Source of the DNA: Perkinsus marinus ATCC 50983
Taxonomy: Eukaryota; Perkinsozoa; Perkinsida; Perkinsidae
Length of the DNA: 64,000 nucleotides
Direction of reading: 5' to 3'
NCBI RefSeq assembly: GCF_000006405.1
Contig: NW_003202674.1
Coordinates: 1 to 64,000, forward strand
Shown: positions 1,624 to 62,415 of the stretch, piece by piece
Numbering within the stretch: the stretch's first letter is position 1
How the letters are laid out: every line of letters starts with the position of its first letter
The notes under the pieces: generated by a model
The model's input: the letters and a program-made list of their open reading frames with translations, nothing else
Database searches by the model: none
What the model was told of the DNA's origin: nothing
Translations under genes and position numbers: made by a program

Positions 1624-1653
1624 GTGTGGCCGCCACACCGCCACACTGTGGCG
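1624..1653. repeat. Palindromic scar with doubled octamer
   Basis: G-TGTGGC is followed by two tandem copies of CGCCACAC and then TGTGGC-G. CGCCACAC is the reverse complement of the octamer GTGTGGCG. This is the 22-nt scar described elsewhere with its inverted octamer present twice. Confidence 0.75.
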
Positions 1654-1879
1654 GCACCTTACTTCAGCCACCCTGCTCGAACTTGTGATTACGGTGCGTA
1701 ATTAGAATGTTGTTCTCTGCGAAGGTTGTGTCGTCAAGTTCTGGGATACACAGGTTTGGTTCGGTTTTCTTCCTGTATAAAGAAAGCGTCCCGAACTTAG
1801 GTGTTTCCAACTGATCCACTCGGACCCCGTATTTTGACCCGTGTGTGTGGATGTGGGTCAGTTTGAAGTCCAACGCCGT

Positions 1880-3100
1880 CGCCGGCTTGATTAAAATGGA
1901 TGCTATACGTGATAGCGAATAGCATTGCTATTTGGTGATATGCATTTCTTCTATTATTCGTATCGCAATGTTCCACAACTCACACAAACTCCAAACCAGA
2001 CGGTTGTTACCGGAAGTGGCAAATGAGAAACACGCGTTACATCACTCCCGGAGTCACTCGCGGCGCGAACATGAATCGTGCCTCACCCGCCGGATACAAA
2101 CGGCCCATCGCGGCGGGGCTGGCCCGAACCCCAGCGCTTTCGAGAGAAAATCGCCCCTGAGGAATTATCTCCAAGTAAAGAGCGCTTGCAGGCGATATTA
2201 CATACCACATCGAAAGCCTCTTTCGCTCCGTCGCGTAACACGGTATCCATCGCGTTGGCGCACATCACAGCTTGACGTGAATTGCACCTGAAGAACAACT
2301 CGACATGTCAAAGGGCTAAGGCGCTTCGCTTTACTCATTTAATGAGCCTCTTAAAGTTGGTGCCAATGCAAGCCATCATGTTTCACCACCCACACGAAAA
2401 TGCCCTGCACCGAACCTGACCAAATCCAATTATGGACATGTTATCGGGAAATCCATCATGCGCCGCCAGACTCACTTCTTGCAATCTCAAAGTACAGTTG
2501 CAAGCGGCTTCAGCGGAAATTCGGATGACGTTTTTGATCAGATCATCTGCATGAGTGTGCGTCTTCGCCCACGAGAAGCTGCAAACAAATAGTCGCACTT
2601 CTACAACGACAATGGTCAGTTTCCTACAGTATCATGGCCCATGATTCATGGAGGCTTCGCAAGGCGTTAAAACCTCCCTAGCTTCCGTTGGTCGCTCCGC
2701 GTGAATGAGCCGAATCAGCACCGCTTCACCGAACGCTGGAAATATCTGAGTAACTTTCCTGTATGCTGTGTAAATTCTAGTAGACCAATCTCCGGTTCCA
2801 TAATGTTAAGGAAGGCCATCGCATGCGTGCATGTAACAATTGATTGCATTCCACCATCAATCTCAGCTTGTCGCGGTCGCCGGGCTGCGGCCAGTGATAG
2901 TGCCTATGTCGAAGTCTGCTGCGAACTGAGACCAGAAACACTTCCTACAATGCGATTGAGCCCTGGAGACAGCGTTCGGTCAATCAGTGTCGCTCGATTA
3001 TGCGACATCGAAGGATCAGGAATTCTGCTCGCACTTGATAATAGCAGGGATACGATCCAGAGCGGCACCTGACAGTCCAGGATAGGCGGGGCGAGTGAAG
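1880..3100 (-). pseudogene. Truncated copy of helical-repeat gene 3' part (R2)
   Basis: This stretch aligns, in the same orientation, with 39530-40660, the 3' part of the putative helical-repeat gene read on the minus strand at 39.7-41.9 kb. Shared features include the terminal coding block ending GQPRR.GPFVSGG (2083-2298 here), the exon beginning near 2598 (CSFSWAKTHTHADDLI), and the block around 2701-3072. Upstream exons of the intact copy are absent and replaced by unrelated repeat, so this is a truncated duplicate. A 14-bp scar at 2631-2652 is missing from the other copy. Function unknown. Confidence 0.55.
2631..2652. repeat. 22-nt palindromic scar
   Basis: A-TCATGG-C-CCATGA-T-TCATGG-A: target octamer ATCATGG(G/A), one mismatch at the last base. 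The paralogue at about 40209 reads straight through without the 14 extra bases. Confidence 0.8.
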
Positions 3101-3123
3101 GGACTTAGGTGGTAACCACGTAA

Positions 3124-3146
3124 GTCCCTTATCAGTGATAAGGGAC
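3124..3146. repeat. Palindrome, 11-bp arms, 1-nt centre
   Basis: Arms run from GTCCCTTATCA to TGATAAGGGAC with a single central G. It abuts another imperfect palindrome (3103-3132, arms starting AAGGGACTTA, centre A). The paralogue near 40676 lacks both. Probably nested versions of the hairpin scars. Confidence 0.6.
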
Positions 3147-3311
3147 CAGTAGGATAAGTTATCATTCTAGCTGTTGGCTATGACAGCTTTCCTTCATTCT
3201 TCTCCCTTTCATTGAGCGCCCCGCTTAGTCGTTTTAATGGACTGTTATCATGCCCGAGCCCGAGACTCAGCTGTGCTCAGCCAACTATGGTGCTCACGAA
3301 ATTGTCATGGT

Positions 3312-4267
3312 ATGCTGCCGGAGCTCCAATACGATGTAGCCCAACTCTTCGACATGCGAGAACAAGGTTTGGTCGAACGTGTTTGTCCACATCCGAGAGC
3401 GGAGCAACTGCCATTACTGATATTCAATCGGAATGACTGCCTGTGGGTCGTAAATGAATCCTTGAGGAGGGTGGCCAGACCCCGCTGCATCGACAGATCT
3501 GAAGCGACATCGATTGAACCCATCAGAAACGGCTATAGGGCTTGCTACGACTATGACGACGTCAACGACAGAGTGCATGCCTCCGACTGCGAGTATCACA
3601 GAGTATTCGTTTACAAGCTTGACAATCCCGAGTTCTGTCAGGAGGTCTATGTTGGCCCTTACGATGAATATGTAATGAGCAGTAAGTTCCGCTGTCTCGA
3701 TGGACTTGTCTTTCTCGCCTATGTCAATACTGAACGCACCACTGCGCTGCGCTGTGTCGACTTGAGGAACACTGCAAAACACACCGAGGCACGACTACTT
3801 CGGACATAAGGTTGTCAATTTTATGGAAGTCGGCTCGGAGATTTCATTGTGAGTCAAGTTCCTGGCCAGGGAGGACACTATACTTTCGCATACGTCTATG
3901 CTGGTGGAGTCATCCGCGTAGCGTTGAGCCTGAACGACCCAGCTCAATCCGCTCCCTACCGGGAGATCGTCAGTTCAATCCCCCATGGATGCATCTACAT
4001 CCGAGATATCAGGCTGATTACTCCCGAAACGATTCTGGTCGTCGACTCCAGCCATCCTGAAGGCTCCTGCTCTCTACATATATTCTACTTTAGAGCTAAC
4101 GTGTGTCACAGTTGTCACAAACTTACTGCCTTTTCAGTACGCGGTCTCTATGAAGTCGCAGTGCATCCCGACTCGGGATTCCCGAGGGGCTCATCTGTAT
4201 GGTCTATTCAGTTCGCGGTGGGAGCGGTGAGATTATACTGAGGACATAAGAGTGCGTATGGTCGTAG
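3312..4267 (+). pseudogene. Degraded gene of repeated family F, copy 1
   Basis: The frame opens at MLPELQYDVAQLFDMREQG and runs about 165 residues to 3809. It then resumes in another frame at 3845 (VSQVPGQGGHYTFAYVYAGG...), and ends with a conserved tail (LRT.ECVWS) interrupted by stops. Two relatives lie at 18320-18690 (3' part only) and 21911-22464 (internally deleted), so the full reading can be inferred but no copy is intact. One shift lies near 3805-3830; another follows the 14-bp scar at 4165-4186. Beta-strand-like, aromatic-rich segments suggest a propeller-type fold, but no family is recognised. The peptide gene at 5589 lies downstream in the same repeat unit. Confidence 0.65.
4165..4186. 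repeat. 22-nt palindromic scar
   Basis: A-TCCCGA-C-TCGGGA-T-TCCCGA-G: octamer ATCCCGAG. Both other copies of this gene family (near 18633 and 22375) lack the extra 14 bases, so the event is specific to this copy. Confidence 0.95.
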
Positions 4268-4285
4268 CATCGCTCTACTGCATTT

Positions 4286-4344
4286 GATTTTCACAGTGGG
4301 ACCCACTGTGAAAATCTTTCCCACCCACTGAGTGGGTGAGAAAG
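4286..4344. repeat. Two abutting 1-nt-centre palindromes sharing one octamer
   Basis: Left palindrome 4286-4316 has 15-bp arms around A4301; right palindrome 4316-4344 has 14-bp arms (one mismatch) around G4330. The left arm ends in CAGTGGG and the right one contains ACCCACT-G-AGTGGGT. Both thus derive from the octamer CAGTGGGT with its flanks, as expected for two opened transposon-excision hairpins joined end to end. The paralogue at 18673 shares only the beginning of the left palindrome. Confidence 0.85.
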
Positions 4345-7288: not shown

Positions 7289-7310
7289 GTTATCAGTGAT
7301 AACTTATCAC
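7289..7310. repeat. 22-nt palindromic scar
   Basis: G-TTATCA-G-TGATAA-C-TTATCA-C: perfect form, octamer GTTATCAC, in single-copy sequence. Confidence 0.9.
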
Positions 7311-11360: not shown

Positions 11361-11763
11361 ATAAAGTGGACCTTGTGATAGAATCCATGCTCATATTTGG
11401 AGCTGAAATCTGAGCCAACTAGTCCCCCGCAATAGAGACTCATATTGTGTGTTTATACAACGCAAAGCGATTTGCAACACAACTGAATCGCTTTATTTAC
11501 AATCGTTCAATTCTATTGAGGAGATAAACAATATATACACAATTCCACACACTCAGAATATGACTGTCATATTATGACAATTATGCAGATGACATGACTG
11601 ATGTACTACTGTACATCCATATGAGAATCTCACAGTGGCTTGCCGTCTTCCCTCGAATGACGAACCCAGGTGCTGCTCTCGGCGCTTTCAGATTCCGATC
11701 CGACATCCTCGCACATTTGGTCGGTCAAATGAAGCGGAGCGCTCCGGCACCATGTGGTGCTGT

Positions 11764-16089: not shown

Positions 16090-16589
16090 TTGTCTCGAGA
16101 TAGATATTCATTTATTGAGCTTAAGGCTTATCCTGAGATCACCGCGTCGGCCAGCAAGTCTGTTATACAGTTTACTCCAGATGGTCAAGCTGTGGAGACT
16201 GCGAAAGTTTCGCAGTCAGCAGCGAAACTTCCTACGGAGAAACCTCCCAATACCTTTGAGCGATGGCTTCCATTGATGTTGCGGTGGGCTTTCACTATAT
16301 ATCTTCTTGAGGGTGAGGGTGACTTGATACATGTTTGTGAGTAATACTCACTGAGTATGCTGCGAGGTTTGCCTCGATATCAAATAAACATGGTTTTGGT
16401 AAAGCACAGTTGTTTGATCGACGTTATCATCAGCGAATGATGTTATGCATGAGAGACTGCCCATATAAAGATTGCAAGTTTGCTGAGCATTTACCGTCTA
16501 CTACTCAGCAAAGGGATGCTTATATGGATAAAAGAGCTATTAATAATCAGGGGCAGGGCCCGAGAGATAATACGGCAGCTAAACGATAG
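16090..16589 (+). pseudogene. DIRS/Ngaro-like element, gag-type ORF, broken
   Basis: The first frame (from 16090) reads through TFERWLPLMLRWAFTIYLLE to a stop at 16341. It resumes in another frame with EYAARFASISNKHGFGKAQL and continues to a stop at 16589. The tryptophan/arginine-rich helical pattern, and its position ahead of a tyrosine-recombinase ORF, resemble the first ORF of DIRS-like retroelements. The break falls exactly on the 22-nt scar at 16337-16358; without its 14 extra bases the two frames are continuous. No reverse transcriptase was seen between 16.6 and 17.0 kb, so the element is internally deleted or is a Crypton-like relative. Confidence 0.55.
16337..16358. repeat. 22-nt palindromic scar inside gag-type ORF
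   Basis: G-TGAGTA-A-TACTCA-C-TGAGTA-T: perfect form, octamer GTGAGTAT. It shifts the frame of the gag-type ORF and creates its early stop. Confidence 0.95.
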
Positions 16590-18107: not shown

Positions 18108-18319
18108 GAGGGCTTCTAGATTATCTCCATTTGAGTGGTTTCACAACACCCTAGTTTATTGACCTCCGGGGTTGACCTGGTGTTATAACTAGGATGTTGT
18201 ATATAGGAGATAAAGTTTAGAAGCGCCACGGGTTTGATAAACCAGTGGCAACCACCCAAACCTCCATATTACTGAACACAATATAGGTGGTTACAGTAAA
18301 TCCATAAATAAGGAGTTGA
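18108..18319 (+). repeat. 212-bp direct repeat B of tyrosine-recombinase element
   Basis: Second copy of the repeat at 17749-17960. It ends exactly where homology to family F starts (VSQVPGQ...), so it marks the right border of the element, inserted in or replacing the 5' part of that family F copy. Confidence 0.9.
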
Positions 18320-18690
18320 TTGTGAGTCAAGTTCCTGGCCAGAGAGGACACTATACTTTCGCATACGTCTATGCTGGTGGAGTCATGCGCGTAGCGTTGA
18401 GCCTGAACGACCCAGCTCTATCCGCTCCCAACCGGGAGATCGTCAGTTCAATCCCCCATGGATGCAACTACATCCGGGATATCAGGCTGATTACTCCCGA
18501 AACGGTTCTGGTCATCGACTCCAGCCATCCTGAAGGCTCCTGCTCTCTACATATATTCTACTTTAGAGCTGACGTGTGGCACAGTTGACACGAACTTACT
18601 GCCTTTCCAGTACGCGGCCTCTGTGAAGTCACAGTGCGTCCCGAGGGGCTCATCTATATGACCTATTCAGTACTGTTTTTGATTTTCACA
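18320..18690 (+). pseudogene. Family F gene remnant, copy 2 (3' part)
   Basis: Homologous to 3845-4230: VSQVPGQRGHYTFAYVYAGG through SSHPEGSCSLHIFYFRADVW, then stop at 18588. The 5' half is missing, cut off by the tyrosine-recombinase element whose direct repeat ends at 18319. Downstream the unit continues with hairpins H1 and H2 and the second peptide gene, in the same order as copy 1. This copy lacks the scar found at 4165-4186. Confidence 0.7.
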
Positions 18691-19758: not shown

Positions 19759-19780
19759 CTTCAATAATTGAAGTTCAATT
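19759..19780. repeat. 22-nt palindromic scar
   Basis: C-TTCAAT-A-ATTGAA-G-TTCAAT-T: perfect form, octamer CTTCAATT; shared with 5342-5363. Confidence 0.9.
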
Positions 19781-20775: not shown

Positions 20776-20797
20776 TACTATGTCATAGTAACTATGA
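20776..20797. repeat. 22-nt palindromic scar
   Basis: T-ACTATG-T-CATAGT-A-ACTATG-A: perfect, octamer TACTATGA. The homologous position at about 38150 reads through without the 14 extra bases. Confidence 0.95.
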
Positions 20798-21404: not shown

Positions 21405-21668
21405 GGTTTCGTAGTCGTTATTGGCCAAGTAAGATGGTCCACATCCGACTTTTACTCCATGATCAACATCGAAAATTTTACATACAGCCTATACAGTACT
21501 GTCATTGAAGTATACCTCGCTTCGCTTGCAGATACGTTTCGGCGACTCGTGATCTCTTTTATAGGAATCGTGACCGATACGAAGAGTATGCTGAGGGGGA
21601 AATCGCTATTTGGTGACCGTTTATGCATAGTTGACAACTATTAGTTGTTCTCTTCTCTTCATATAACA

Positions 21669-21690
21669 CTGTTCACTGAACAGTGTTCAG
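21669..21690. repeat. 22-nt palindromic scar
   Basis: C-TGTTCA-C-TGAACA-G-TGTTCA-G: perfect, octamer CTGTTCAG. Confidence 0.9.
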
Positions 21691-21910: not shown

Positions 21911-22464
21911 ATGCTGCCGGAGCTCCAAAACGATGTAGCTCAATTTCTCGGCACCCGAGAACCAGGCTTGGTCGAACGTGATTGTGCACGTCTGAGAGCG
22001 GAGCAACTGCCATCACTGATATATTCAATCGAAAGGGCCGTAGATGAATTCTCGAAAAAGGTAGCCAGAGCCCGCTGCATCGACAGTTCTGAAACGACAT
22101 CGATCAAACCCATCAGGAACGGCTACAGTGTTCCTCCAATTCAATCCGCACCCTACCGAGAGGTTGTTAACTCTATCCCCTGTGGACGCAATTACATCCG
22201 AGATATCAGGGTGATTACTCCCGACATGGTTTTAGTCATCGGCTCCAGCCATCCTGATTCAGGATTCCTGAAGGCTCCTGCTTTCTACATATTTCGCAGT
22301 TTAGGGCTGACCTGTGGCAAAGTTGCCACGAACTCATAGCCTTTCCAGTACGCGGTCTTTATGAAGCGGCAGCGCGTCCCGATGGGCTTATCTATATGGC
22401 CTATTCAATTCGTGGTGGAAGCGGAGGAATTCTGCTGAGGACGTACGAGTGCGTGTGGTCGTAA
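21911..22464 (+). pseudogene. Family F gene remnant, copy 3 (internally deleted)
   Basis: It starts MLPELQNDVAQFLGTREPGL, like copy 1. It jumps at about 22128 from the first block directly to the PIQSAPYREVVNSIPCGRNY block, so roughly 370 bp are missing relative to copy 1. The end (DGLIYMAYSIRGGSGGILLR...ECVWS, stop at 22462-22464) is better preserved than in copy 1. A scar at 22251-22272 throws the reading out of frame in between. Function unknown. Confidence 0.65.
22251..22272. repeat. 22-nt palindromic scar
   Basis: A-TCCTGA-T-TCAGGA-T-TCCTGA-A: perfect, octamer ATCCTGAA. Copies 1 (near 4052) and 2 (near 18530) of the gene family lack it. Confidence 0.95.
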
Positions 22465-23052
22465 CATCGCTTTGCTGTACTCGACGTGGTAAGAAAATCG
22501 AGATTTGATTGATTTCGTTATTTCATTTTTTGTCGTCTACATGTGATTTGATGACGCTCAATGAGTTATCATAATATCGTGCCCTGTTAGGAAGGCTGCT
22601 TTCCGAAAGTATTAAGTGTTGCGTTGAGTGCGGCAGTATCTTACCGGTAGCAGCGGAGGGAGTTTGTTACTGCCGGCCTCTGACATCGAGTAAGACTGAT
22701 TCTAGAACCCGCGGTTGTTCACCGCTTGAAGGAACGTGCTCGAGTGGTGGGTTCGGTCTCCACTTGGTAGTGGGAGGAATCCTCGCGGAGGATCCCGGTC
22801 ACCCGCACGTGTTGACCTGTAGACATCTATGGGTGCGATCGTAAGATACATTGCGAGGATACAATTAATCTTGGCCCAAGATTCTTGGGCACTCCAGTCG
22901 TAGTAGTCTTTCTTCTCAATCGGGTTGCACAGGTCTTTTCCACGAATATGACATCGATCACTCCGTTGCCAAGGATAGGGCAAGCGCATAACGCAGCGTG
23001 AGTGACGTTTAGTACACGTGCATTACTGACAGTAAGTACCGTCATGGGATTA

Positions 23053-23074
23053 CTGACAGCCTGTCAGTGACAGG
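23053..23074. repeat. 22-nt palindromic scar
   Basis: C-TGACAG-C-CTGTCA-G-TGACAG-G: perfect, octamer CTGACAGG. Confidence 0.9.
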
Positions 23075-24220: not shown

Positions 24221-25936
24221 CTAAGTAATAGGATTTCTCTCTTCCTCAATAGTGAGCTTAGGATCCTCAGATTCGACCTCTACTTCCCCTGTGGAACCGC
24301 GGCTGCTTCGCATCCACCTCTCGAATAGTGAACCAGAAGTAGCCGAAGTATCGTCACCGTCGGCCATGATACGCTCGTTCATCCTGGCATTAGGTATCAA
24401 CCAGAGAAAGAAGAGCGACGTGGTACTCAAGCTTATCAGTATCAATGACACAATCCAGAGGTTGTCAAACTGCTCCGATTCGTCAACACCAGGTAGGCCT
24501 CGTGGGACAACTCCCAAAGATTGACTGATGAAGCCTGCAATAGGACGTGTAACATTCTGGGAATAGTTCGATAACGATGCCAATAAGGCGAACATAGTAG
24601 CTTCCATATTCTTAGGGCATAAATGAGACAGGATGAGGAACCCTGGCATGAATTGTATCATAGACACCGATTCCACTAAGGCTTTGCTGCCTATAGCGAA
24701 GACCTGATCGGGGATTCCGATACGGACATTTAGTCGAGAGAAAATAATAGGGTCGCCTAGCTGCATGATCACCAACATTGCCGTCATCGAGAAGTACACT
24801 GTCCGATACTTCCAATTCTTCATGAACTTGCCGAAAGCAAGGAGGGCGAGCACTGAGCAGAGCTGTCCAACGGTCCCCAGTACTGAGCCATAGAAAACGT
24901 CGGAGAAATGCGGTCCAGCGGGATACATGGTAGCGTCGTTGGTGTAGAAGTAGATCGCGGGACCCCCAACTGTCGCAATGGTAATTTGCGATATCGCATT
25001 GAACAACATCAACTTTCCGATCACTGGCCTCATCACAATGAATGCGAAACTAGTGAGAAAGATCGTGGACGAGATGGCGGTCACGAAAGCGACCGTATTA
25101 GAGGCAGCGACCAAGTTAATGATAGAATAAACCACGGCCGTCACTCCAACCACAACCGATAGAACGGCGACAGTCGTTTGCTTGCCCCACAAATGCTTAC
25201 GATGAGCTCTGGACTCTTCTTTGGTCACCCGCTTCTCCTCGAAGAAGTTGAGCCCCGCGGGTATGATAACAGTAGCAGATGTGAAGATTGTAGTCAGAAT
25301 TGCCCACTGTGCACCACCAAGGCTCCAAACTCCATCAGCGTGCTCAACAATGAAGCCGACGAGCAGCACCGCGACGAGACCCAATAGTTGGTTCCCAGTC
25401 CAAACGTAGCTTACTAGGGCCGGTCCCGATCCGGGAACACCGGCTAAACGCCGAGAGTATACCGCCTCAGCAAGCAGGTCATACCCCATCAGCTGAAGGT
25501 TCGCCATGAAAAGCCCAACCGTCCCAATCGGCGCATTGCTCTCGACTAGGTCTAGAGACACTGCCAGGATGGTGCCGGCTAGGCCAAGGATGCTTAGGAT
25601 CATCATATACGGGAGCTTGTGGTACCCAAACATGGGGAGAGAGTCGGAGATCACACCGAGCCAAGGCTTCATCGCCCAAGGCATGAAAACCACTGAGGCA
25701 TATCGGTCAATATCTGGGCCACTCACATTCATGGACCGAAAATAGAACGAAATACTGGAATACAGCACGAGGTAACTGTAACCCTTGGCCCAGTGATTGG
25801 TGAAGTGTAGCATGAGGATAAGTTTCCATCCAAAGTCCTTACATAACATATGGATTGCACTAACAAAGGGAACTCTCTCTATGAGGAGTCCCTTAGCTGT
25901 CGTGGCCATAGCGAGACCAGCCGGAGGGGGAGGCAT
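24221..25936 (-). CDS. Folate-biopterin transporter (FBT/BT1 family)
   Basis: A 571-residue membrane protein encoded in a single exon. Residues about 40-95 (TNHWAKGYSYLVLYSSISFYF ... VVFMPWAMKPWLGVISDSLP) carry the family hallmark: the loop between helices 1 and 2 with KPWLGVISD. About twelve hydrophobic helices follow, including MANLQLMGYDLLAEAVYSRR (residues ~150-165) and a late segment MIQFMPGFLILSHLCPKNME. Length and topology fit the FBT family of the major facilitator superfamily, common in kinetoplastids, apicomplexans, stramenopiles and dinoflagellate relatives, which moves folates, pterins or S-adenosylmethionine across membranes. The ATG at 25936 precedes a short hydrophilic leader; downstream Met10 (MATTAKG) is an alternative start. 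Substrate cannot be told from sequence. It is an intact host-type gene between two repeat-rich blocks. Confidence 0.92.
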   Translation of the reverse strand: MPPPPAGLAMATTAKGLLIERVPFVSAIHMLCKDFGWKLILMLHFTNHWAKGYSYLVLYSSISFYFRSMNVSGPDIDRYASVVFMPWAMKPWLGVISDSLPMFGYHKLPYMMILSILGLAGTILAVSLDLVESNAPIGTVGLFMANLQLMGYDLLAEAVYSRRLAGVPGSGPALVSYVWTGNQLLGLVAVLLVGFIVEHADGVWSLGGAQWAILTTIFTSATVIIPAGLNFFEEKRVTKEESRAHRKHLWGKQTTVAVLSVVVGVTAVVYSIINLVAASNTVAFVTAISSTIFLTSFAFIVMRPVIGKLMLFNAISQITIATVGGPAIYFYTNDATMYPAGPHFSDVFYGSVLGTVGQLCSVLALLAFGKFMKNWKYRTVYFSMTAMLVIMQLGDPIIFSRLNVRIGIPDQVFAIGSKALVESVSMIQFMPGFLILSHLCPKNMEATMFALLASLSNYSQNVTRPIAGFISQSLGVVPRGLPGVDESEQFDNLWIVSLILISLSTTSLFFLWLIPNARMNERIMADGDDTSATSGSLFERWMRSSRGSTGEVEVESEDPKLTIEEERNPIT

Positions 25937-26952: not shown

Positions 26953-28117
26953 TGATCAGGTCAGGCTAAGCACTTTTCGTGAGGAGCACCTAGCAAATTG
27001 TCAACGGCAACGCCTTCGGCAGGACATCACACTTGGAAGTCTCTCCCTCTTCGCCCAGGAGAGCACGTTACCCTTCCCTCCCCTCTTGAGTCACTCCCTG
27101 AAGTCTCCGTAGCTCAGCTACCGCTACAAGCTCATCACTACTTGTGTTATCAAGCCCGTGCGCTTTACTGTCACATCACACCCTTGCGCCACATCTACTC
27201 GAACCGTTACAGGCTCGATCGATAATATCAGAATACACCAACATATTCCAATATTTCTCATTTCGTGCACTTGCTCGAACTTGCTTTCTAACGCAACCTT
27301 CACTGACGCATACGCCTCAGGACCAAAAAAGATCATAGGTTAATCGCTGCCGGTCTATTTTCAGCCAAGTGTATACGCAGCTCATAAGTTGAACAGACCT
27401 CATTGGTCATAAGGAACTTCAGCCTTGAGTCACTAATCGATTATGTACATGCGTACCCGTGGATGTTGGGTAACGTGTCAACTCTGGCTCCAGTGATTGT
27501 CCAGTTCAACTGAAAACCTCTACGTGTCAATGAAACTATCAACAGAGCTAGTAGAATAGGTGGCTTGGAGAGGACCGAAGAGTTGCAGATTTCCCTCCTG
27601 ACCTAGAAGTCCCGAAGTCTCGGTTACGGGCGCTCGGCTAACTGGTGCCGTATGCACGCCTCACGCGGGTCAGTCGCGTCACCATTGGTGATTCACCAAG
27701 GTTGACCCGCTGCCACAAAAGTAAGGAAATTAGCCTCAGTCGCGAAGTTCCAATCGCTCGTCCGTGATCAATTCACATACGATATGTATGTCCCATCAGG
27801 TACACTATTTCAGATCTCTTCAGAGAACTTCTTTAGCTAGCACGTGGCAGAAAAGCTTCTAATGAAGAATGTTCGCGGTATTTTAGTGAGAGGAGGAGGC
27901 GGTTTCCGCGAGCCATCCGGCTCAAACGAGAACTGCAATATGACGTGCAATTCAACAGTTGAATTTCAACTGCACAAGTGTCGAATGCGTTACGAGGAAT
28001 GTATAACTCCGTTACGAGAATATTCAGTAACGATCTATCTCACTTTGTCAATGGAGTGTGTGTGTGTAGCATATTATCATCCGTAAATCACTGGCCATAT
28101 ATTGCCAGTGGCATTTG
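26953..28117. other. No gene recognised
   Basis: Short ORFs (up to 80 codons, 27844-28086) show no recognisable family. Contains the imperfect scar at 27678-27699, itself inside a larger inverted repeat (GCGGGTCA near 27665 with TGACCCGC near 27703). Confidence 0.4.
27678..27699. repeat. 22-nt palindromic scar (one mismatch)
   Basis: G-TCACCA-T-TGGTGA-T-TCACCA-A: octamer GTCACCAA, with T for C at 27692. Confidence 0.7.
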
Positions 28118-28966: not shown

Positions 28967-28988
28967 ATCACAACTTGTGATTCACAAG
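28967..28988. repeat. 22-nt palindromic scar
   Basis: A-TCACAA-C-TTGTGA-T-TCACAA-G: perfect, octamer ATCACAAG. Confidence 0.9.
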
Positions 28989-29579: not shown

Positions 29580-29890
29580 TAAGTCCTTGAGGACGTGGGT
29601 TAGTGGAACGAACTAACGCCCTTGCTCACCTTGCTCAAAAAAACTAACGTTAGATCATAAATGTTCCCAAATTGAGGGCGAGTCCGAGGGCTTGAGTAAA
29701 GTTTACTCAGTAAACTAACCGGTTCTCATCCTTGAGTGAGACTATCTTATCTTAGGTTCTCGAGTTCTTTACCGTTTGAGGGTAGCCGCTGATAAAAGAT
29801 TCGCACCGTCAATTACCAGTCGACATTCCCAGATTTTGTAAAATCCTTGAGAAAATACATGCATACTGCGATGATCATAATATGATCTAT
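29580..29890. repeat. Interspersed repeat R1, copy 2
   Basis: Same orientation as 1104-1480. It carries an extra 14 bp (29694-29715) and runs into the assembly gap. Confidence 0.75.
29694..29715. repeat. 22-nt palindromic scar
   Basis: G-AGTAAA-G-TTTACT-C-AGTAAA-C: perfect, octamer GAGTAAAC. The R1 copy at about 1220 reads through without it. Confidence 0.95.
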
Positions 29891-30433: not shown

Positions 30434-30455
30434 CCGGAGTGACTCCGGCGGAGTC
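30434..30455. repeat. 22-nt palindromic scar
   Basis: C-CGGAGT-G-ACTCCG-G-CGGAGT-C: perfect, octamer CCGGAGTC. The right arm (near 38858) lacks it and 16 further bases. Confidence 0.85.
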
Positions 30456-31899
30456 GCTACGCTTTCAAGATGCTGACGTGTACAATATCTCTTGAGAGTG
30501 ATGTTCAACAACAAATTATCTCTAAGCTCGTAGGTGCTTCAATAGTCCAAGCATCGTAAGAGAAAGCTTTTGGTATCTGGCAGATTGTTTTCTAGTGGAC
30601 TCGTTGTAGGGTTCGAGACAGACGTGAACTAAGTGGTGGTCGTAGCGCTCAGATGAGGAGCCTTAGTATGAGTGGTTAGATGAAGTAGTGAGGTTGGAGT
30701 GACGGCGAGGAGCGCTAACTTCTGAATCTCAAAGGTACTCGTGTTATAAATCACGCCATGTGACTCGGAGCATGTCCCAAGACGGAATTTACAAGTCCGA
30801 GTGTCGTTCCGAGTACTCCGACTCGGCACTCGGAGAGTAGGAGCACTTGAATGCACGAAAATCTTTCGAGCCCGGGAAGTCTGCTTTTCCGACTTCTCGG
30901 ACTCGGAGAGGTGAGCACTTTGATTGGCTTCCGAAGACATACGCGTGGATCAAATCAAATCAGACCGACTCGGCGACTGAGACACTGCTTCCGTTAATAT
31001 CAACGTGGCTCGTCTTGTGCTCTCCGCTACTCTCACCATGCAGTGAAATGGGTCAACCTTATGGTTGCTCAACACTCAACACCAATTAACCATCAACAGA
31101 TCGGTATATCACGGTTCCCGCGTGTTTGAGTCTGAGGCGGGATCTCAAACATCGTCATAGTATGACGTTCATACAGCCCCCATTTGGTTTGCAGGATAAT
31201 ACGCGTACGGCCGTTATGATATGATGAATTGTCATCGGCAGATATAATACGCCCATATGTCTCCACGCACTGCGTGTCACGCAGCGCTTACAATCGTGTA
31301 TCAACTTCTATCGGTGTTTAAGCGCACTCCTATTTGCAGATTTGCTCCTAATTGACTTCAAGGTGAACACGACAGCGTAATCACGTTTCGAAAGAATCTT
31401 GTTCCGCATACGATAGGCAGCATACTTGATTTAGAACCGACCTCAGAATCATTTTCTTAGACAGTTGACTCAGCACACTTGACTCAAATAAGCTGACGGC
31501 CAAGTGCGGTGCTCATGCGTGAAGTTAACGTCCTCGAACGAGCACCCTCAAGAAGAAACTGCCAACAAGTCGAACATCTCAAAGGGATTTTTAATGTGAT
31601 AGGACGGAATATGTGACTAGGAACCACTGGTTACCACTTTGTGATAGATTGTTTTCATCCAGCTCAATGTTCTGTGAGGCACAGGCGGCATCAACCAGGC
31701 GCGTTTGGCGCTCTTATGATGCGGAAACATCAGATACTGGATCAAGGATAGAAGAGCTATCACACCCGCACGGAAGGACGGTGAGGTGGTGGCTCTCGAA
31801 CGAACAGGGTCAAGACAGCAGAAATGAAGCCCCCATCAAGTTGCAATGAAAGGTTACATCATATCTCATAATGAGATTCTCATTCAACTCGATGTATCA

Positions 31900-33162: not shown

Positions 33163-35257
33163 TCATAAGACACTCCTGCTCTGGTAGCCAGCAGTAGAAT
33201 GTGGTGTCTGCCACCGTTTCACCACAGACGGGCCAGCACCGCCAGACACCACAACCGTTGTGTCATCCGCATAGAGGGTCAGGCTCACGCCTTCCACCTC
33301 CATATTTGCGAAGTCATCCACAAGCGGCAGGGTGGATAGAAGGAATAAAAAGCGGTCCAAGGCACTGCCTTGGGGGGCCCCCCGTTGGAGCTTCAGACTG
33401 GCTTCGTCAGCACCATAGACAGCTAAAACACTCTGATCCCTTAAATAGCCTTCTACAAAGTCCAAGATATCGCGGAACATTGTATCGAACCAGGGTTGCC
33501 AGAATGTGGCTGTTGAACGCGTTGAACCGAGTTGAACGCGTTTTGCACGTCTAGTTAAACTAATGCAATATGCGCGCGCTTGCCCCTTTTTCCTCCTGCC
33601 CTGAACGCCTCGACTACGCGCAGGACAGCAGAGTCAACCGATTTTCCCTTGCAGAATCCATGGACAGTCGGAGGGTCCAATCGCTTCTGGATCTGCGGGC
33701 AAGATGCAAGCCGTTCTACTATGGGACATTCGAACAGCTTGCTACCTGAACCGACCAGACAGACGGGCCTCCAGCCGTTAGGCTTGGTTGGGTCTCTTCC
33801 GGCCTTATGGATAAAGAATTTCTTTGGATGAATTCCATCCGTCAGGATATATACCAAACTCAAAGATTTCAGTGAACTGCGCACACCAGTTGTCCTTCAG
33901 CACCTCGAGAATATCGAGAATGATGCCGTTAGTGATATCATCCACACCGGGAGCCGCGCCCCTCCGTAGTCCCTTGGCCGCTCCTCTGAGCTCCGAATGA
34001 GTGACCGCTGGAGCTGGGACGGTCCGCGGCGGTAGTACCAAGGCATCGAGCTCCGCAGCCCTGTCAGGATCACGGCAAGAGAGCCTGCGTAGGAGAAAGT
34101 CCGCCTGATTCGCACCCTACGGGCACATGGCCGCAGGAGGGATCTGAGGACAACCTCTTTTAGCACACCGAGAGTAGTGCTGCAGATCCTTGAAGAATCT
34201 ACGAACAGCTACCCTCTTAGCCTCTTTGATAGCTGTGCCGAATTTGCGTCGCGGCTTTCTCGATAATGCGCCGTTGAGGCTGCATCCGGGCCGTTCAGCC
34301 TCTTATGACGGTAGAACGTCCGCTGCTCCTTTTTGAACTGCGCCTTCAGCCTAGATAGCTTGCTCGTTCACCAGGTGGTGTCAGAGGGAGCTGGGGCTTC
34401 AGGCGTGACCCGTTTCATCAGGGTGCTCGAGGAGCCCGTGATACCTTGCAAAGGAGTATCAGAGGGAATCCGAAAAGCACCATCAATAACCTTGGCTGCA
34501 TCTACGAGGCGATGGGCCGATCGTCGCGGCACACGATTGCCATCCTGACTATCTACCTCTGTGCAGAGCAACCTGTAGGCTGATCCGCAAAGATCGTCCA
34601 CCACCTCCCATTGAGGCGAAGCGCCATCTCTGGGAGTACCGTACAATAGGGTGAGGTCAATCCAGGAGTGATACCTTTCGGACTCGAAGGTAGGAAAGGA
34701 TTCATCGTCGTTGAGAATTCGAATCTCCTTCTCCGGACACCAGTCCACGAGTGCCTCACCACGCCACCAGGCCTGCTTATATAGGTTGTTGACAGTTAGC
34801 TTCGCGCCCCACGCTATGTGCCATGCATTAACATCGACACATATGAAGAGTGGAACGGACACAGGCCATGTCGATATGACCTGGTCAAATTCAGAGAGCG
34901 TCATTTCCCTCCTTTGCATGTCAGTGCCGTGGAGGTACCATGATGCTACACCATAGGCTATGGTCCATAGCTGCCTTCCTTGACCACGACAAGGTCTCGG
35001 GAAGCAAATATCGTGTGGCAAGGAATGCCACGTCTGGACAAAATACAGGCCTCGTCGTTCTTAGGTCAGCCGTGGTATTGATAACCAACAAGTTTAGGAG
35101 AACCGGAGCATGGCTCCTGAAGGCATCCCATGTCTACGAAAGAATTACGCAGCCGGGACTGGAGTGAATCCAAAGCCACTAGCCGATGCCCTTGGTTATG
35201 CTGTAGAACCCTAATCATTGAGATGAGGCAGCATTTCCGAAGTCCGTGCGGACCCAC
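33163..35257 (-). pseudogene. Non-LTR retrotransposon ORF2 (endonuclease and reverse transcriptase), dead
   Basis: On the minus strand the order is endonuclease then reverse transcriptase. The endonuclease starts near 35245 (IRVLQHNQGHRLVALDSLQS) and continues with VPLFICVDVNAWHIAWG and YHSWIDLTLL, the D-x-N and S-x-x-D type motifs of APE-like nucleases. The reverse transcriptase has RRGAAPGVDDITNGI, KAGRDPTKPNGWRPVCLVG, LQRGAPQGSALDRFLF and the catalytic LTLYADDTTVVV. Several shifts and stops split it into at least six frames, so it cannot work. Motif order and style fit the Jockey/R1/CR1 range of LINEs; the clade is not settled. No poly(A) or tail repeat was identified before 33124. Confidence 0.88.
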
Positions 35258-36716: not shown

Positions 36717-36751
36717 TACTTTCAACATCACTAGTAGTGAGGTTGAAAGTA
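36717..36751. repeat. Palindrome, 17-bp arms, 1-nt centre, right arm
   Basis: Mirror copy of 32557-32591; one mismatched pair, centre G36734. Confidence 0.8.
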
Positions 36752-37420: not shown

Positions 37421-38017
37421 TGATACATCGAGTTGAATGAGATATGATGTAACCTTTCATTGCAACTTTCTCGATCGGTGCTTCATTTCTGCTGTCTTGA
37501 CCCTGTTCGTTCAAGAGCCACCACCTCACCGTCCTCCCGTGTGGGTGTGATAGCTCTTCTATCCTTGATCCAGTATCTGATGTTTCCGCATCATAAGAAC
37601 GCCAAACGCGCCTGGTTGATGCCGCCTGTGCCTCACAGAACATTGAGCTGGATGAAAACAATCTATCACAAAGTGGTAATCAGTGGTTACTAACCACATA
37701 TTCCGTCCTATCACAATAAAAATCCCTTTGAGGTGTTCGACTTGTTGACAGTTTCTTCTTGAGGGTGCTCGTTCGAGGAAGTTAACTTCACGCATGAGCA
37801 CCGCACTTAGTCGTCAGCTTATTTGAGTCAAGTGATCTGTCTAAGAAAATGATTCTGAGGTCGGTTCTAAATCAAGTATGCTGCCTATCGTATGCAGAAC
37901 AATGATTCTTTCGAAGCGTGATTACGCTGTCGTGTTTACCTTGAAGTCAATTAGGAGCAAATCTGCAAATAGGTGTGCGCTTAAACACCGATAGAAGTTG
38001 ATATACGATTGTAAGCG

Positions 38018-38039
38018 CTGCGTGGCACGCAGTGCGTGC
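38018..38039. repeat. 22-nt palindromic scar
   Basis: C-TGCGTG-G-CACGCA-G-TGCGTG-C: perfect, octamer CTGCGTGC. A slightly decayed version is in the left arm near 31263-31284; the copy near 20670 lacks it, so it arose after those units split but before the arms did. Confidence 0.95.
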
Positions 38040-38110
38040 AGACATATGGGCGTGTTATATCTGCCGATGACAATTCATCATATCATAACGGCCGTACGCG
38101 TATTATCCTG

Positions 38111-38132
38111 CAAACCATTGGTTTGAAACCAA
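38111..38132. repeat. 22-nt palindromic scar
   Basis: C-AAACCA-T-TGGTTT-G-AAACCA-A: perfect, octamer CAAACCAA. The left arm (near 31190) reads through without it. Confidence 0.95.
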
Positions 38133-39317
38133 ATGGGGGCTGTATGAACGTCATACTATGACGATGTTTGAGATCCTGCCTCAGACTCAAACACGCGGGA
38201 ACCGTGATATACCGATCTGTTGATGGTTAATTGGCGTTGAGTGTTGGGCAACCATAAGGTTGACCCATTTCACTGCATGGTGAGAGTAGCGGAGAGCACA
38301 AGACGAGCCACGATGATATTAACGCAAGCAGTGTCTTAGTCGCCGAGTCGGTCTGATTTGATTTGATCCACGCGTATGTCTTCGGAAGCCAATCAAAGTG
38401 CTCACCTCTCCGAGTCCGAGAAGTCGGAAAAGCAGACTTCCCGAGCTCGAAAAAGTTTCGTGCATTCAAGTGCTCCTACTCTCCGAGTGCCGAGTCGGAG
38501 TACTCGGAGCGCCACTCGAACTTGTAACTTCCGTCTTGGGACATGCTCCGAGTCACATGGCGTGATTTATAACACGAGTACCTTTGAGGTTCAGAAGTTA
38601 GCGCTCCCCATCGTCACTCCAACCTCACTACTTCATCTAACCACTTATACTAAGGCCACTCACCTGAGCGCTACGACCACCACTTAGTTCACGTCTGTCT
38701 CGAACCCTACAACGAGTCCACTAGAAAACAATCTGCCAGATACCAAAAGCTTTCTCTTACGATGCTTGGACTATTGAAGCACCTACGAGCTTAGATAATT
38801 TGTTGTTGAACATCACTCTCAAGAGATATTGTACACGTCAGCATCTTGAAAGCGTAGCGACGGGCCCCGCTCGTGTTTCCTCCGAGTTGACTCGTTAACG
38901 AAGGTAAAACCGATCATTGGCGACGTTTAACTTGACTTGCGAGTGCTGTTCACGAAGCGACTGTCTTCCTGAACTTCGTAGCGAACTCCCACCCAGACCG
39001 GTGAGAGATAAATATTGCGTTGCGACTCGCAACTTGCGATCTTGGCTAAAAGGTGCCTCAAGAAGGCTAGACCTAAGCAGGTGTTGTCGAAACAGCAACA
39101 TATTGTTAAATTTTCTTTGCTCTTTCTCTCTTCATCATTTCGTTAGAGTGTGCCTGAAGACGCTAACTTAACACTGTCAACCAGTCAAAGTGGCTGTTGT
39201 GTAGCCCAGTGACTGTTGCACTTCGAAAGTGCACTGAAAGATCGGCCGCCGGTCTCACACTTATACTTACATTTCTTACATTGGATCTCACAGGCTTTTC
39301 AAGTCCTGCAAGTCAAG

Positions 39318-39339
39318 CAGACTGCCAGTCTGAGACTGG
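39318..39339. repeat. 22-nt palindromic scar
   Basis: C-AGACTG-C-CAGTCT-G-AGACTG-G: perfect, octamer CAGACTGG. Confidence 0.9.
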
Positions 39340-39485: not shown

Positions 39486-39507
39486 ATTTGATAATCAAAT
39501 TTTGATT
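39486..39507. repeat. 22-nt palindromic scar
   Basis: A-TTTGAT-A-ATCAAA-T-TTTGAT-T: perfect, octamer ATTTGATT. The left arm (near 28312-28333) lacks it. Confidence 0.95.
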
Positions 39508-39651
39508 ATCAAATTTCGATAGTATCCATTTCTTCTACTATTCGTGTCCGTATTGCTCTCCGACTCACACAAACTCAAAATCAGATCAGTGTTGCCGGAA
39601 GTGGCGAATCAGAAACATTCGTGACATCACTCCGTGAACATGAATCGTGCC

Positions 39652-41925
39652 TTAGCCGCCGGAGACAAACGGCCCAGCGCGGCGGGGTTGGCCCGAACCC
39701 CAGCGCTTTCGAGAGAAGATCGCCCCTGAGGAATTATCTCCAAGTGGAGAGTGCTTACAGGCGATGTTACATACCACATCGAAAACCTCTTCCGCTCCGT
39801 CGTGTAACACGGTATCCAATACGCGAACAATCGCGTTGGCGAACATCACAGCTTGACGTGAATTGCACCTGAAGAACAACAACAGACATGTCCAAGGGCT
39901 AAGGTGCTTTGCTTTACTCATCCAATGAGCCTTTGAAGGTTGATGCCAATGCAAGCCACCAAGTTGCATCACCTACACGGAAATGTCCCGCGCCGAACCT
40001 GATGAAATCGAGCTGCAGAGCAGTTGTCGGGAAATCCATCATACGCCGCCAGGCTCGCTTCCTGCAATCCCAAAGTGGAGTTGGAGGCGGCCTTAGCGAT
40101 AAGTTGAAGGACATGTTGGATCAGATCATCTGCATGAATGTGCGCCTTCGCCCACGAGTAGCTGCAAACAAATAGTCGCACTTATACAACGACAATGGTC
40201 AGTTTCCTACAGTATCATAGAGGCTTCACGAGGCGTTAAAACCTCCCTGGCTTCCGTTTGACGCTCCGCGTGAATGAGCCGAATCAGTATCGCTTCGCCG
40301 AACGCTGCAAATATCTGAGTAACTTTCCTTGATGCTGTGTAGCTTCAAGTAGACCAACCTCCGGTTCCCTGATGTTAAGGAGAGCCATCGCATGCGTGCA
40401 TGTAACAATTGATTGCATTCCACGGTCAATCTCAGCTTGTCGCGGTCGCCGGGCTGCGGCCAGTGATAGTGCCTATGTCGAAGTCTGCTGTGAACTGAGA
40501 TCAATAAGCACTCCCTACAATGCGATTGAGGCCTGGTAACAGCGTTCGATCAATCAACTTCACTCGATTATGCGACATCAAATGATGAGGAATTCTGCTC
40601 ACACTTGATAACAGCAGCGATACGATACGCAGCGGTGCCTGACAGTCCAAGATAGGCGGGGCGGGTGAAGGGACCTACGTGACTAACAATGTACGTGTGC
40701 AGCTGCTCGCCTTCTTCAGTGATACCAGCGATCGCTATCTCAAGCATATCTTCCAGGGAACTCAGAGCTCCGGAAGCTCCTTGATGAGAAACTAGTTCAC
40801 TGTGAATGCGTGTCGCCCCGGAGAGCATCTGATCCGCACGTAACGAGACAGAGAGATGAACGACTTGTAGTAGTAGTACGAGAGCTATCCCTTGTGGAGT
40901 GAGTGTTTGGACTACATCCGAGTCTGACAAATGAAGTTGTTCGCCAATATAAATATAATATTTCCATTACCAGCCATTCTACTGCAAAGCTTCGTTACGG
41001 CCTCACACCCCTCCGGACCAGACAAGGATATATTCTTTGCTAAGCAGTTGAACAGTATCGATACTCCCTGGCTCGTTAACGTGTCCGCGATCTCGACCTG
41101 AGAGATTTCCCATGATTAACGGAGGGAAGCATGAGATTGGTGAACGAGTTGCGCATAACGGTTCGGGTGTAAAATTGGCGATCAGATATAGCATTGTTTC
41201 AAGTGAAATTCTCTCCTATGCTGAGGCGCGTTGCAGACAATGTGAAAAGAACATATCCACATCTGTTCATGACAATGAGAAAACTCCTAGCAAATCTTGG
41301 GACCTTCACGAGGTTTATTTTCCAAACATTTATACCGCAAGTAGTATGTGCAAGTAGTGAGAATACTTCCGAGCTCAGCTGATCAAAACAAGTAACATTC
41401 CCACATCGACCGCAGCCTAATTGCCATTGTTTACACATCGCGCTAGAACAGCTCTTTGGGCTCCTTCAAGTTCCGGGCTTATCGATTCTGTTCCACACAC
41501 AGCTGGTGCTACCATCACTAGTTGCTGAGCGTTCATCCCGGGCAGAAGGCGGGTAAGATGCGTGGTGATCACCTGGAAGAAAAGTGCAGAGGCCCCTCTG
41601 AGAAACGAAACCTCACAGGGCATTCAGCAAGGTCGACTCCGAACTTGTTGATGCCGTGTACCACTAGGGAGATATTCTGCGCATTGTAATCCTCACATTT
41701 CAGCGGCCCGCCTTCCAAGTGTCGGTTGAGTAATTTCCGTATCTGCTATCAACCCAACGTCGTTATCGACTTCTCAGGATTCCCACCAACTCACGAAAAT
41801 ATTGCAGTGACCCTCGCTGTCTCTGCCCTCACTCATACGCCTCTGCAAAGCGTTAACAACGAGAGCGACATCCCTCGGAACCATACGAGAACAGACTATT
41901 GCGCCTCGTCCTGAGAGCCCAAGTT
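39652..41925 (-). CDS. Putative helical-repeat protein, multi-exon
   Basis: Minus-strand blocks separated by GT-AG introns give one helical protein. They are MVPRDVALVVNALQRRMSEG (about 41890-41785), SLVVHGINKFGVDLAECPVR (about 41690-41630), VITTHLTRLLPGMNAQQLVM (about 41575-41415), an exon at 40930-40568 (MSDSDVVQTLTPQGIALVLL...), one near 40165-40010 (YSWAKAHIHADDLIQHVLQL...), and a terminal block ending GQPRRAGPFVSGG at 39652. The spacing of leucine-rich helices recalls the heptatricopeptide/octotricopeptide repeats of organellar RNA-binding proteins in alveolates, but that is inference from pattern only. A truncated duplicate lies at 1880-3100. The 3' end lies in the giant inverted repeat. 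Upstream exons may exist. Confidence 0.4.
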
Positions 41926-42585: not shown

Positions 42586-42607
42586 ACGAGCCCGGCTCGT
42601 CGAGCCG
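42586..42607. repeat. 22-nt palindromic scar
   Basis: A-CGAGCC-C-GGCTCG-T-CGAGCC-G: perfect, octamer ACGAGCCG. Confidence 0.9.
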
Positions 42608-45251: not shown

Positions 45252-45311
45252 TTCTTGTTAGTTTTTGAGTATTTGAAATACTCAAAAACTAACAAGAAAT
45301 ACTGTATTTCT
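45252..45311. repeat. Two overlapping 1-nt-centre palindromes sharing one octamer
   Basis: 45252-45298 is a perfect palindrome with 23-bp arms around G45275. 45295-45311 is a second one with 8-bp arms around T45303, containing GAAATAC-T-GTATTTC. Both centre on the octamer AGTATTTC, with the terminal base of each copy replaced by its complement. This is the unshortened form of the 22-nt scars. Confidence 0.85.
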
Positions 45312-60898: not shown

Positions 60899-61011
60899 CA
60901 GTGGAGTTTCACGACCGTAATATGAAAATTTTCCGACCTCTGCATAGTGCGAATATCGCGTTTTTCACAGAGTTTTACGCCACTTCACGTACATTAGATG
61001 AAACTCCACTG
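60899..61011. mobile_element. Short TIR element, family B (113 bp, best copy)
   Basis: Perfect 13-bp terminal inverted repeats CAGTGGAGTTTCA and TGAAACTCCACTG; interior includes GCATAGTGCGAATATCGCG. CAGTG termini are hAT-like, but no 8-bp target duplication is visible in the flanks. Confidence 0.85.
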
Positions 61012-61039
61012 TTTAGAGAGAGACGCAAGACAACTCGAA

Positions 61040-61200
61040 AGTTCTTAGGAGCTCATATAAGCCTAAACCCGAGCCTCTACTACCGTAAGGATTCCCAAGT
61101 CCTCCTCCATCATAGTAGTTGCCATACGGAGTGCCCCCATTGCCAACAGTCGCATACGTAGGATAGGCCCTTTTCGTAATAGTGTTCCTCCCACTGCACG
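61040..61200 (-). CDS. Glycine/tyrosine-rich exon
   Basis: Minus frame YATVGNGGTPYGNYYDGGGL then GNPYGSRGSGLGLYELLRTF reaches a stop at 61013, next to the family B element. Composition like the exons at 42932 and 43644. The parent gene is unresolved. 61210-62260 shows nothing else supportable. Confidence 0.35.
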
Positions 61201-62264
61201 TCAAACACTCACCCGTATATCGCTGGAGCGTGCTCAATCTGTCGCTGGTCTAATGCATGTACAGACCCAGCCTGCTCGACGTACACGTATTGGGCGCTGA
61301 GACGGAGTTGCATTGATCACAGACATCGAAGAAAACTACCGATATTGATCATCGGAGCGTGGCGGTTTCGATGGGTCATGCCTTTTACTAAACACATGTA
61401 GGAATTCTACTCTTTACTCAATAACAATACTACCTCGCACCGATCGTCCGATCCGCAGCAGCAGCACTAGCAGAATTTTTCATGGGGGGAAAATTCAACT
61501 AACTAAGAGTGACTTCAATATGCGCTGATTGGGAATGTGAAGGGAATAAGAGCAGTAGAATTGCATGTACTATCCAGCCCACGAGCCCCCAGCTGCACAC
61601 TCTAGGCATTCTCAGCCAGACTTAAGGAGCGTATTTTTTTCTTAGGCAAATTAAAAAAATCTGTGTTTCTCGTTAACGAATCAGAGTTTTGAGCTGAAAC
61701 TTCAACAGGATATACTCATTATCATGGTACATCACATGTTGAGTCGAAACGGTCATGTTCGGAACGGTTACTGATATATCATGGCGAGCGAAATAATCAC
61801 CCCCGCGAACCGTGCAGATTCCTTAGGCAACACAACAGAACCTTAGTCCTAATTACATGATTGCCTCTATGGATTATATCATTGATAAGATATTGTTATG
61901 TCCCTTTTCATGCGATCGCCCTGAGATATGTAATCCACTCAAACTGTGATAAGCTAAGCTAGATATTTCCGTGTTTGCAATCATAGATGGATTATTATTA
62001 AATCTCTTATCAACTCCTTCATTGCTATGTCAAGTTCCCCTTCCCTAGGGTCACAGCAATATAAATATACAATAGACTAACCTGATATTTATTACACATT
62101 ATTACAAGTCGATTTTTAGTGGAGATAGTGGAAATTTCAAGCGCGCCAAGTTGCCAACCTTGCCAAGCCCAGGTCTACCACCAATAACGAGTTTCGATTG
62201 CCAAAATCGAGATGATGTCGTCCACTCCCCCGTGAATAGACACTGAATTCCCCAAAATTTTCAC

Positions 62265-62325
62265 CAAATTTTCATTTTGTATACCACACATGTGGTTGAT
62301 CATGTGCATATTTTCCCACTCAGCC
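62265..62325. mobile_element. Family A repeat copy
   Basis: Contains CACACATGTGGTTGATCATG TGC and TATTTTCCCAC, the right end of the family. Confidence 0.55.
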
Positions 62326-62393
62326 ACCCGAAATAGTAACCGTACCTGATGGCGAAGACTCAATCGCCATTCTCAATATCGTAAAGCCTTTCC

Positions 62394-62415
62394 GAAGAGA
62401 GTCTCTTCAAGAGAC
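62394..62415. repeat. 22-nt palindromic scar
   Basis: G-AAGAGA-G-TCTCTT-C-AAGAGA-C: perfect, octamer GAAGAGAC, 270 bp downstream of the V-ATPase gene. Confidence 0.9.

Follow-up and report, generated by a model that had tools for sequence, protein, structure and literature searches.

Transposases of the hAT superfamily make 8-bp target duplications, with a target consensus of nTnnnnAn, and in V(D)J coding joints with P nucleotides the off-centre opening of hairpins leaves palindromes. It is already known that hAT excision leaves footprints derived from flank hairpins, and the chemistry of these footprints is known as well. The hAT transposases Hermes and Kat1 produce hairpin-capped breaks on the flanking DNA (PMC4763223), and Ac/Ds footprints are described as palindromic insertions that are centred on the complement of the element-adjacent base, arise from opened flank hairpins, and occur with 8-bp duplications and microhomology at the joint (PMC5873905, PMC1978519). 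The arms of Ac/Ds footprints reach at most 3 nt in Candida albicans and up to 20 nt in Saccharomyces cerevisiae, where 47% have arms of at least 3 nt (PMC5873905), and the microhomology of yeast footprints is shorter than 6 bp (PMC4561436). Here, we describe a dense set of 14-bp scars in the genome of Perkinsus marinus ATCC 50983, starting from a stretch of 64,000 nucleotides (contig NW_003202674.1, positions 1 to 64,000; "the window" below), in which an earlier note had recognized a recurrent insertion copied from its own target site. These scars are very probably hAT-type excision footprints in which both flank hairpins were annealed through the duplicated octamer.

The Perkinsus scars resemble the Ac/Ds footprints of plants, S. 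cerevisiae and C. albicans in their complement-centred palindromes, 8-bp duplications and microhomology at the joints (PMC5873905, PMC1978519). Ac/Ds footprints are heterogeneous, whereas in Perkinsus a single product, annealed over the full 8-nt duplication, dominates the set that a scan can detect. The earlier note had called known footprints usually short and irregular, which holds for Candida but not for the long palindrome arms of S. cerevisiae (PMC5873905). Hermes and Kat1 are biochemical systems, whereas the Perkinsus case is known from sequence scars and uncharacterised hAT open reading frames (ORFs) alone. V(D)J joints share the palindromes from off-centre hairpin opening but have no fixed annealed product, because no 8-bp duplication is common to both ends. 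The PIF/Harbinger element mPing is similar in that the target duplication itself guides repair and differs in that the site is restored precisely via sticky ends, with no 14-bp insertion (PMC4561436). Among the literature listed for this analysis (titles and starts of abstracts, with the primary yeast and Arabidopsis footprint studies lying outside it), none named a uniform 14-bp annealed hAT product, its genome-wide density or Perkinsus footprints.

The pattern can be written as N-X6-M'-rc(X6)-N'-X6-M, where primes denote complements and rc the reverse complement, or as O[1..7] + rc(O) + O[2..8] for an octamer O. We found 23 exact sites in the window and none in five first-order Markov shuffles, consistent with the earlier chance expectation of 0.0002 sites (64,000 x 4^-14). 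The pattern reported earlier is therefore real, but its counts of 17 exact and three one-mismatch sites were too low: a strict metric adds 14 sites with one mismatch, one of which (39493) overlaps the exact site 39486, and a column-consensus metric yields 16. The excess over shuffled sequence also held in 235,824 unmasked bases of the P. marinus genome (assembly of 54.46 Mb in 347 contigs), with 71 exact sites compared to 0 in one second-order shuffle. This larger set consists of the window, 19 stretches and loci L008 and L009, the other 12 hAT-domain loci being omitted because they overlap the stretches; since 12 of the 19 stretches were picked near hAT-domain matches, it is not a random sample. 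By origin, the exact sites number 23 in 63,900 bases of the window, 37 in 114,501 bases of hAT-picked loci and 11 in 57,423 bases of the seven stretches picked otherwise, a density of about one per 3 to 5 kb.

As the earlier note had stated, the octamers differ from site to site: 68 different ones occur among the 71 sites, spread over many contigs, and the repeats consist of one footprint in three copies of one sequence (L008, L009 and L021) and one octamer found twice in L030. A broad spread of lengths, which the note had taken as a sign of random template switching, was not seen. In the window, octamer lengths of 5 to 13 combined with end offsets of 0 to 3 (144 combinations) gave strong enrichment only at length 8 with offsets 1/1, and the same class was the only one strongly enriched among 160 combinations (lengths 5 to 14, offsets 0 to 3) in the 235,824 bases. 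Matches at lengths 9 and 10 are the same length-8 sites read with looser ends. Identical scripts run on 50 kb of Escherichia coli K-12 returned 0 footprints, compared to 22 in the first 50 kb of the window with its N gap removed. Sites with 0, 1 and 2 deviations from the geometry number 71, 56 and 52, against shuffle means of 0, 0.3 and 0.3, suggesting that the footprints formed over a long period.

Paralogous copies show these sites both filled and empty. Self-alignment of the sequence set gave 87 alignments of at least 150 bp, from which gaps were taken only at identities of at least 75% with good 12-base flanks. Fifteen well-flanked gaps of exactly 14 bp were found at 13 sites, and all 15 show the footprint geometry (13 at 11 exact sites, 2 at one-mismatch sites). 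Among gap lengths above 3 bp, 14 bp was the commonest; lengths of 11, 12, 13, 15 and 16 bp occurred 4, 4, 2, 7 and 5 times, several of them in tandem repeats. All nine sites previously reported as empty in a paralogue proved to be so, eight of them by clean 14-bp gaps (2631, 4165, 20776, 22251, 29694, 38018, 38111 and 39486) and the ninth, 30434, by a 30-bp gap that is apparently 14 bp plus a 16-bp repeat unit. Further filled/empty sites lie at window positions 31863 and 31264, and three more in other loci. Larger collinear gaps between paralogues were also considered as element insertions with duplications, and none gave a clear element.

A short series of steps would produce such scars. A cut-and-paste element of the hAT type would duplicate an 8-bp target O = N-X6-M on insertion, and at excision its transposase would nick one base into each flank and join the strands into flank hairpins, whose terminal base would be the complement of the lost base (left, N-X6 followed by M'-rc(X6)-N' and so on; right, the mirror image). 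If a host nuclease then opened both hairpins at least 8 bases from the tip, the resulting 3' overhangs would carry the octamer inverted (M'-rc(X6)-N' on one strand, N-X6-M on the other) and, because of the target duplication, could pair over exactly 8 nt irrespective of where the cut fell. Once annealed, trimmed and filled in, they would yield N-X6-M'-rc(X6)-N'-X6-M, a net insertion of 14 bp, whose uniform length would reflect the target duplication and be independent of the cut site. Overhangs that failed to anneal would be made double-stranded by fill-in synthesis and ligated end to end, producing a pair of long odd-centred palindromes with a common octamer. Alternatively, a single hairpin may be opened and copy the other. 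It is from sequence that we infer hAT as the source, the family concerned, the involvement of the nuclease, the polarity of the overhangs and the order in which repair proceeded. The core of this model (8-bp duplication, hairpins one base in, annealing through the octamer) was put forward in the earlier note and is supported by four predictions that were borne out and had not been used in building it: unannealed products with two odd-centred palindromes under the octamer rule, complemented centre bases on both sides in most sites, a transposon target bias of the octamers in the 14-bp class, and elements with 8-bp duplications in the genome.

The predicted second product is present. Palindromes with a score of at least 9 are odd-centred in 82 cases and even-centred in 7 in the P. 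marinus sequence scanned; under the same extension rule, the first 50 kb of the window has 25 odd and 0 even, and 50 kb of E. coli K-12 has 2 and 3, respectively. Pairs of such palindromes follow the octamer rule of the 14-bp class, in that N-X6 terminates the left arm, whose centre is M', and the right centre N' is followed by X6-M, as at window centres 4301/4330 and 45275/45303 and at 5096/5130 of L030 (ATCGGCAT). The site at 1624, where the earlier note saw the inverted octamer twice, is real and is such a joint of two hairpin arms. Strict unannealed pairs were defined by two arms of at least 5, an arm sum of at least 14 and exclusion of the annealed distance, matched to each target length. 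With this definition there are 13 pairs for an 8-bp target, compared to 1, 0, 1, 0, 0 and 0 for targets of 5, 6, 7, 9, 10 and 11 bp. Twelve of the 13 are independent, since the pair at L030 3345/3384 links the centres of adjacent annealed sites that share an octamer. With an arm sum of at least 8, pairs obeying the octamer rule number 102 (71 of them at the annealed distance), against 0.2 per shuffle. A looser listing with an arm sum of at least 9 has 27 rows, some of which have one arm of 0 to 3 nt and may be due to chance. The palindrome arms show hairpin openings up to 23 nt from the tip, and the paired palindromes suggest that both hairpins can be opened. Short hAT footprints of the classical, unannealed type (centre distance 1) were rejected as a major exact class, with only 9 sites against 3.0 expected; centre distance 4 gave 13 sites against 4.2 expected.

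With the centre bases left free, sites of the annealed geometry have both centres complemented in 71 of 86 cases, one in 15 and neither in 0; in the unannealed class both are complemented in 16 of 19 (the cross pair L030 3345/3384 falls within the limits of this class). A hairpin formed one base inside the duplication would give the complement at its centre only if opened with a surviving 3' overhang, while a 5' overhang would give the original base. Complemented centres in most sites thus make it probable that both hairpins were opened as 3' overhangs. The octamer bias that the earlier note had proposed to look for is present in the 14-bp class (n = 68), with T at position 2 in 35 of 68 (p = 1e-5) and A at position 7 in 27 (p = 0.01); T is rare at position 1 (8/68) and A at position 8 (10/68). 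This fits the hAT target bias. Unpaired palindromes have A at position 7 in 26 of 51 (p = 1.5e-4).

The P. marinus genome contains the hAT dimerisation domain in at least 14 places, and elements with 8-bp duplications, a class that the earlier note had suggested searching for, do occur. Terminal inverted repeat (TIR) elements with 8-bp duplications enclose three hAT-domain frames, in L022 (3604-5335, with an assembly gap inside), L025 (1882-4948) and L029 (1107-4429), with 13, 14 and 12 matching end bases out of 16, respectively. When duplications of 7 and 9 bp were scanned for as controls in these loci, up to 12/16 end bases matched, so the case of L029 rests on its empty copies and not on its ends. 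The repeat that harbours this element is present in many copies. From the 40 of 2,034 candidates that were scored, empty copies yielded 30 left/right junction pairs; the overlap was precisely 8 bp in 26 of them and 5, 5, 11 and 17 bp in the remaining four. The left flank of L029 (query 91-215) is itself a very high-copy repeat with a tandem period of about 59 bp, for which those 2,034 genome candidates were found at first look. A second family, with CAGGGTGTC ends and hAT-like by its ends only, had both ends read in five copies (C12, C40, C340, C321 and C155), three of which have duplications (C12 8/8, C40 8/8, C340 7/8). In L018, the fourth hAT frame scanned (frames longer than 700 aa or in a TIR element), no clear element ends were found, and its ORF had no relative of solved structure at E 0.1. 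For the L025 element, a search with its 182-base flanks returned no paralogues; a hAT ORF in L025 matches a P. marinus protein at 100% identity over 94% of its length. Footprints also occur inside hAT-like elements themselves (L041, L029 1844 and L017 9484), one of them close to the element end. With hAT present and known excision chemistry sufficient, the unknown transposon-like system considered in the earlier note is not needed, even if none of the footprint sites was seen to hold an element.

A DRMBL domain, of the SNM1/Pso2/Artemis kind, is coded at one genome place. Lack of Ku-type end joining as the cause of annealing was considered and dropped as unsupported: partial Ku matches number two, both at a single place, and the stronger is interrupted by two in-frame stops. 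The DRMBL-domain place and the partial Ku matches do not tell which repair route acts. We regard as unlikely a dedicated Perkinsus route in which transposase hairpins are opened into long 3' overhangs and annealed via the inverted target duplication, giving hAT excision a single programmed-looking outcome, with the density of scars relative to elements arising from mass, perhaps developmentally timed, excision on a scale like that of ciliate internal-sequence elimination.

Several observations weigh against hAT excision as the source. In the part of the genome read, no locus has an element in one copy and a footprint in another; paralogue pairs show footprint versus empty or element versus empty only. 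Seventy-one exact footprints in 0.4% of the genome stand against the hAT-domain places counted in all of it, at least 14, an imbalance that would take very frequent excision, the loss of many elements or a large number of unrecognised non-autonomous copies. In the CAGGGTGTC-ended family, C321 lacks a duplication although both its ends are present, and the left end of C155 is not recognisable. The 15 sites of annealed geometry with one rule-breaking centre base may reflect later mutation. Fifty-five long odd-centred palindromes lack a partner centre and are possibly one-sided hairpin products whose other flank was lost; among unpaired palindromes, T at position 2 falls short of significance (19/51, p = 0.08), and the unannealed class has it in only 7 of 25, with A at position 7 in 9 of 25. 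A weak excess at length 5 is without explanation (window, offsets 0/0: 4 real, 0 in each shuffle), as are alternating palindromes O-rc(O)-O with |O| = 5 in several loci (8 against 0 in the shuffle; offsets 0/2, 24 against 4). Among the unpaired palindromes, those at window positions 33102, 21389, 23799, 26886 and 32574/36734 are nearly perfect, with arms of 11 to 24.

The missing link between a hAT copy and a footprint leaves room for excision by another, undescribed superfamily with 8-bp duplications and flank hairpins one base in. Merlin-related ORFs and remnants have been reported in P. marinus (PMC8101967), and Merlin duplications are 8 or 9 bp long. Merlin is not known to leave footprints of this kind, flank hairpins are documented for hAT (Hermes, Kat1; PMC4763223), the centre rule matches that of Ac/Ds (PMC5873905), and hAT elements with 8-bp duplications exist in this genome, so that we judge such a superfamily distinctly improbable. 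Double-strand breaks of any origin followed by polymerase-theta-like templated end joining could make inverted copies beside the break by snap-back synthesis. Varied lengths and no fixed offset would then be expected, whereas no class other than length 8 with offsets 1/1 is strong; most sites have complemented centre bases on both sides and the octamers carry a target bias, which leaves this route very improbable.

Replication template switching, or quasi-palindrome mutation, likewise yields local inverted copies. The fixed length and offset, complemented centres and target bias speak against it as they do against end joining, and so do the prevalence of odd over even palindrome centres and the linking of two distant palindrome centres by one octamer; we give it hardly any credence. 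That the sites are an assembly artefact, a tandem-repeat family or an ordinary hairpin element, for which nothing in favour came to light, is the least credible of all, given the many different octamers and contigs, the paralogous empty sites and the lack of enrichment in E. coli K-12 under the same scripts. Excision footprints of hAT-type elements thus account best for the scars of the window, whose coordinates are collected below.

Probable excision footprints in the window, with the octamer O of each
Feature	Position	Octamer O	Remarks
Unannealed footprint, two hairpin arms end to end	1622..1654	GTGTGGCG	centres 1631, 1646; arms 9 and 8; follows the octamer rule
One-mismatch 14-bp footprint	2631..2652	ATCATGGG	empty in paralogue within 39523-40681
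Exact 14-bp footprint	4165..4186	ATCCCGAG	empty in paralogue 18313-18644
Unannealed footprint, paired long odd-centred palindromes	4286..4344	CAGTGGGT	centres 4301, 4330
Exact 14-bp footprint	7289..7310	GTTATCAC	
Exact 14-bp footprint	11558..11579	ATATGACA	
Exact 14-bp footprint	16337..16358	GTGAGTAT	
Exact 14-bp footprint	19759..19780	CTTCAATT	paralogue 5342 has the same footprint with a mismatch
Exact 14-bp footprint	20776..20797	TACTATGA	empty in two paralogues
Exact 14-bp footprint	21627..21648	ATAGTTGT	
Exact 14-bp footprint	21669..21690	CTGTTCAG	
Exact 14-bp footprint	22251..22272	ATCCTGAA	empty in paralogue 18417-18669
Exact 14-bp footprint	22868..22889	ATCTTGGG	
Exact 14-bp footprint	23053..23074	CTGACAGG	
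Exact 14-bp footprint	27950..27971	ATTCAACT	
Exact 14-bp footprint	28967..28988	ATCACAAG	
Exact 14-bp footprint	29694..29715	GAGTAAAC	empty in paralogue 1104-1297
Exact 14-bp footprint	30434..30455	CCGGAGTC	absent from paralogue along with 16 more bases
Exact 14-bp footprint	31863..31884	ATCTCATT	empty in two paralogues
Exact 14-bp footprint	34950..34971	ACCATAGC	inside endonuclease/reverse-transcriptase-like ORF 34368-35021 (-), PF14529
Exact 14-bp footprint	38018..38039	CTGCGTGC	empty in paralogue
Exact 14-bp footprint	38111..38132	CAAACCAA	empty in paralogue
Exact 14-bp footprint	39318..39339	CAGACTGG	
Exact 14-bp footprint	39486..39507	ATTTGATT	empty in paralogue 28123-28369
Exact 14-bp footprint	42586..42607	ACGAGCCG	
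Unannealed footprint, 23-nt hairpin arm	45252..45311	AGTATTTC	centres 45275, 45303
Exact 14-bp footprint	62394..62415	GAAGAGAC	

The roughly 20 kb between 42608 and 62393 contain no exact 14-bp footprint and one unannealed footprint, at 45252, together with a KH-domain ORF and a long repeat-rich ORF; footprints may have been purged there or be rarer. An ORF for a BT1-family transporter lies at 24221-25936 on the minus strand of the window and shares 99% identity, over 88% of its length, with a protein of P. marinus ATCC 50983. The segments 30040-33069 and 36239-39247 form an inverted duplication of about 3 kb with 94% identity, and a near-identical copy of this arrangement on contig C228 is either a haplotype or an assembly duplicate. 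A dispersed 240-bp repeat at 32235-32476 has more than 20 matches in the genome.

Studies at reporter loci counted 17 (PMC1978519) and 128 (PMC5873905) footprint events. In the natural genome of P. marinus, one exact product may survive in some ten thousand copies, to order of magnitude, plus a second product class, an estimate extrapolated to 54.46 Mb from the small sample of 11 exact sites in the 57,423 bases not chosen for hAT. Such scars allow cut position, overhang polarity, target preference and the relative use of annealing and end joining to be read straight from sequence, and they record insertions that have since disappeared, in a protist that yielded few hAT-domain copies. They also make the host factors that open and rejoin transposase hairpins a testable question, and, as frameshifting insertions, 14-bp footprints could be misread by genome annotation.

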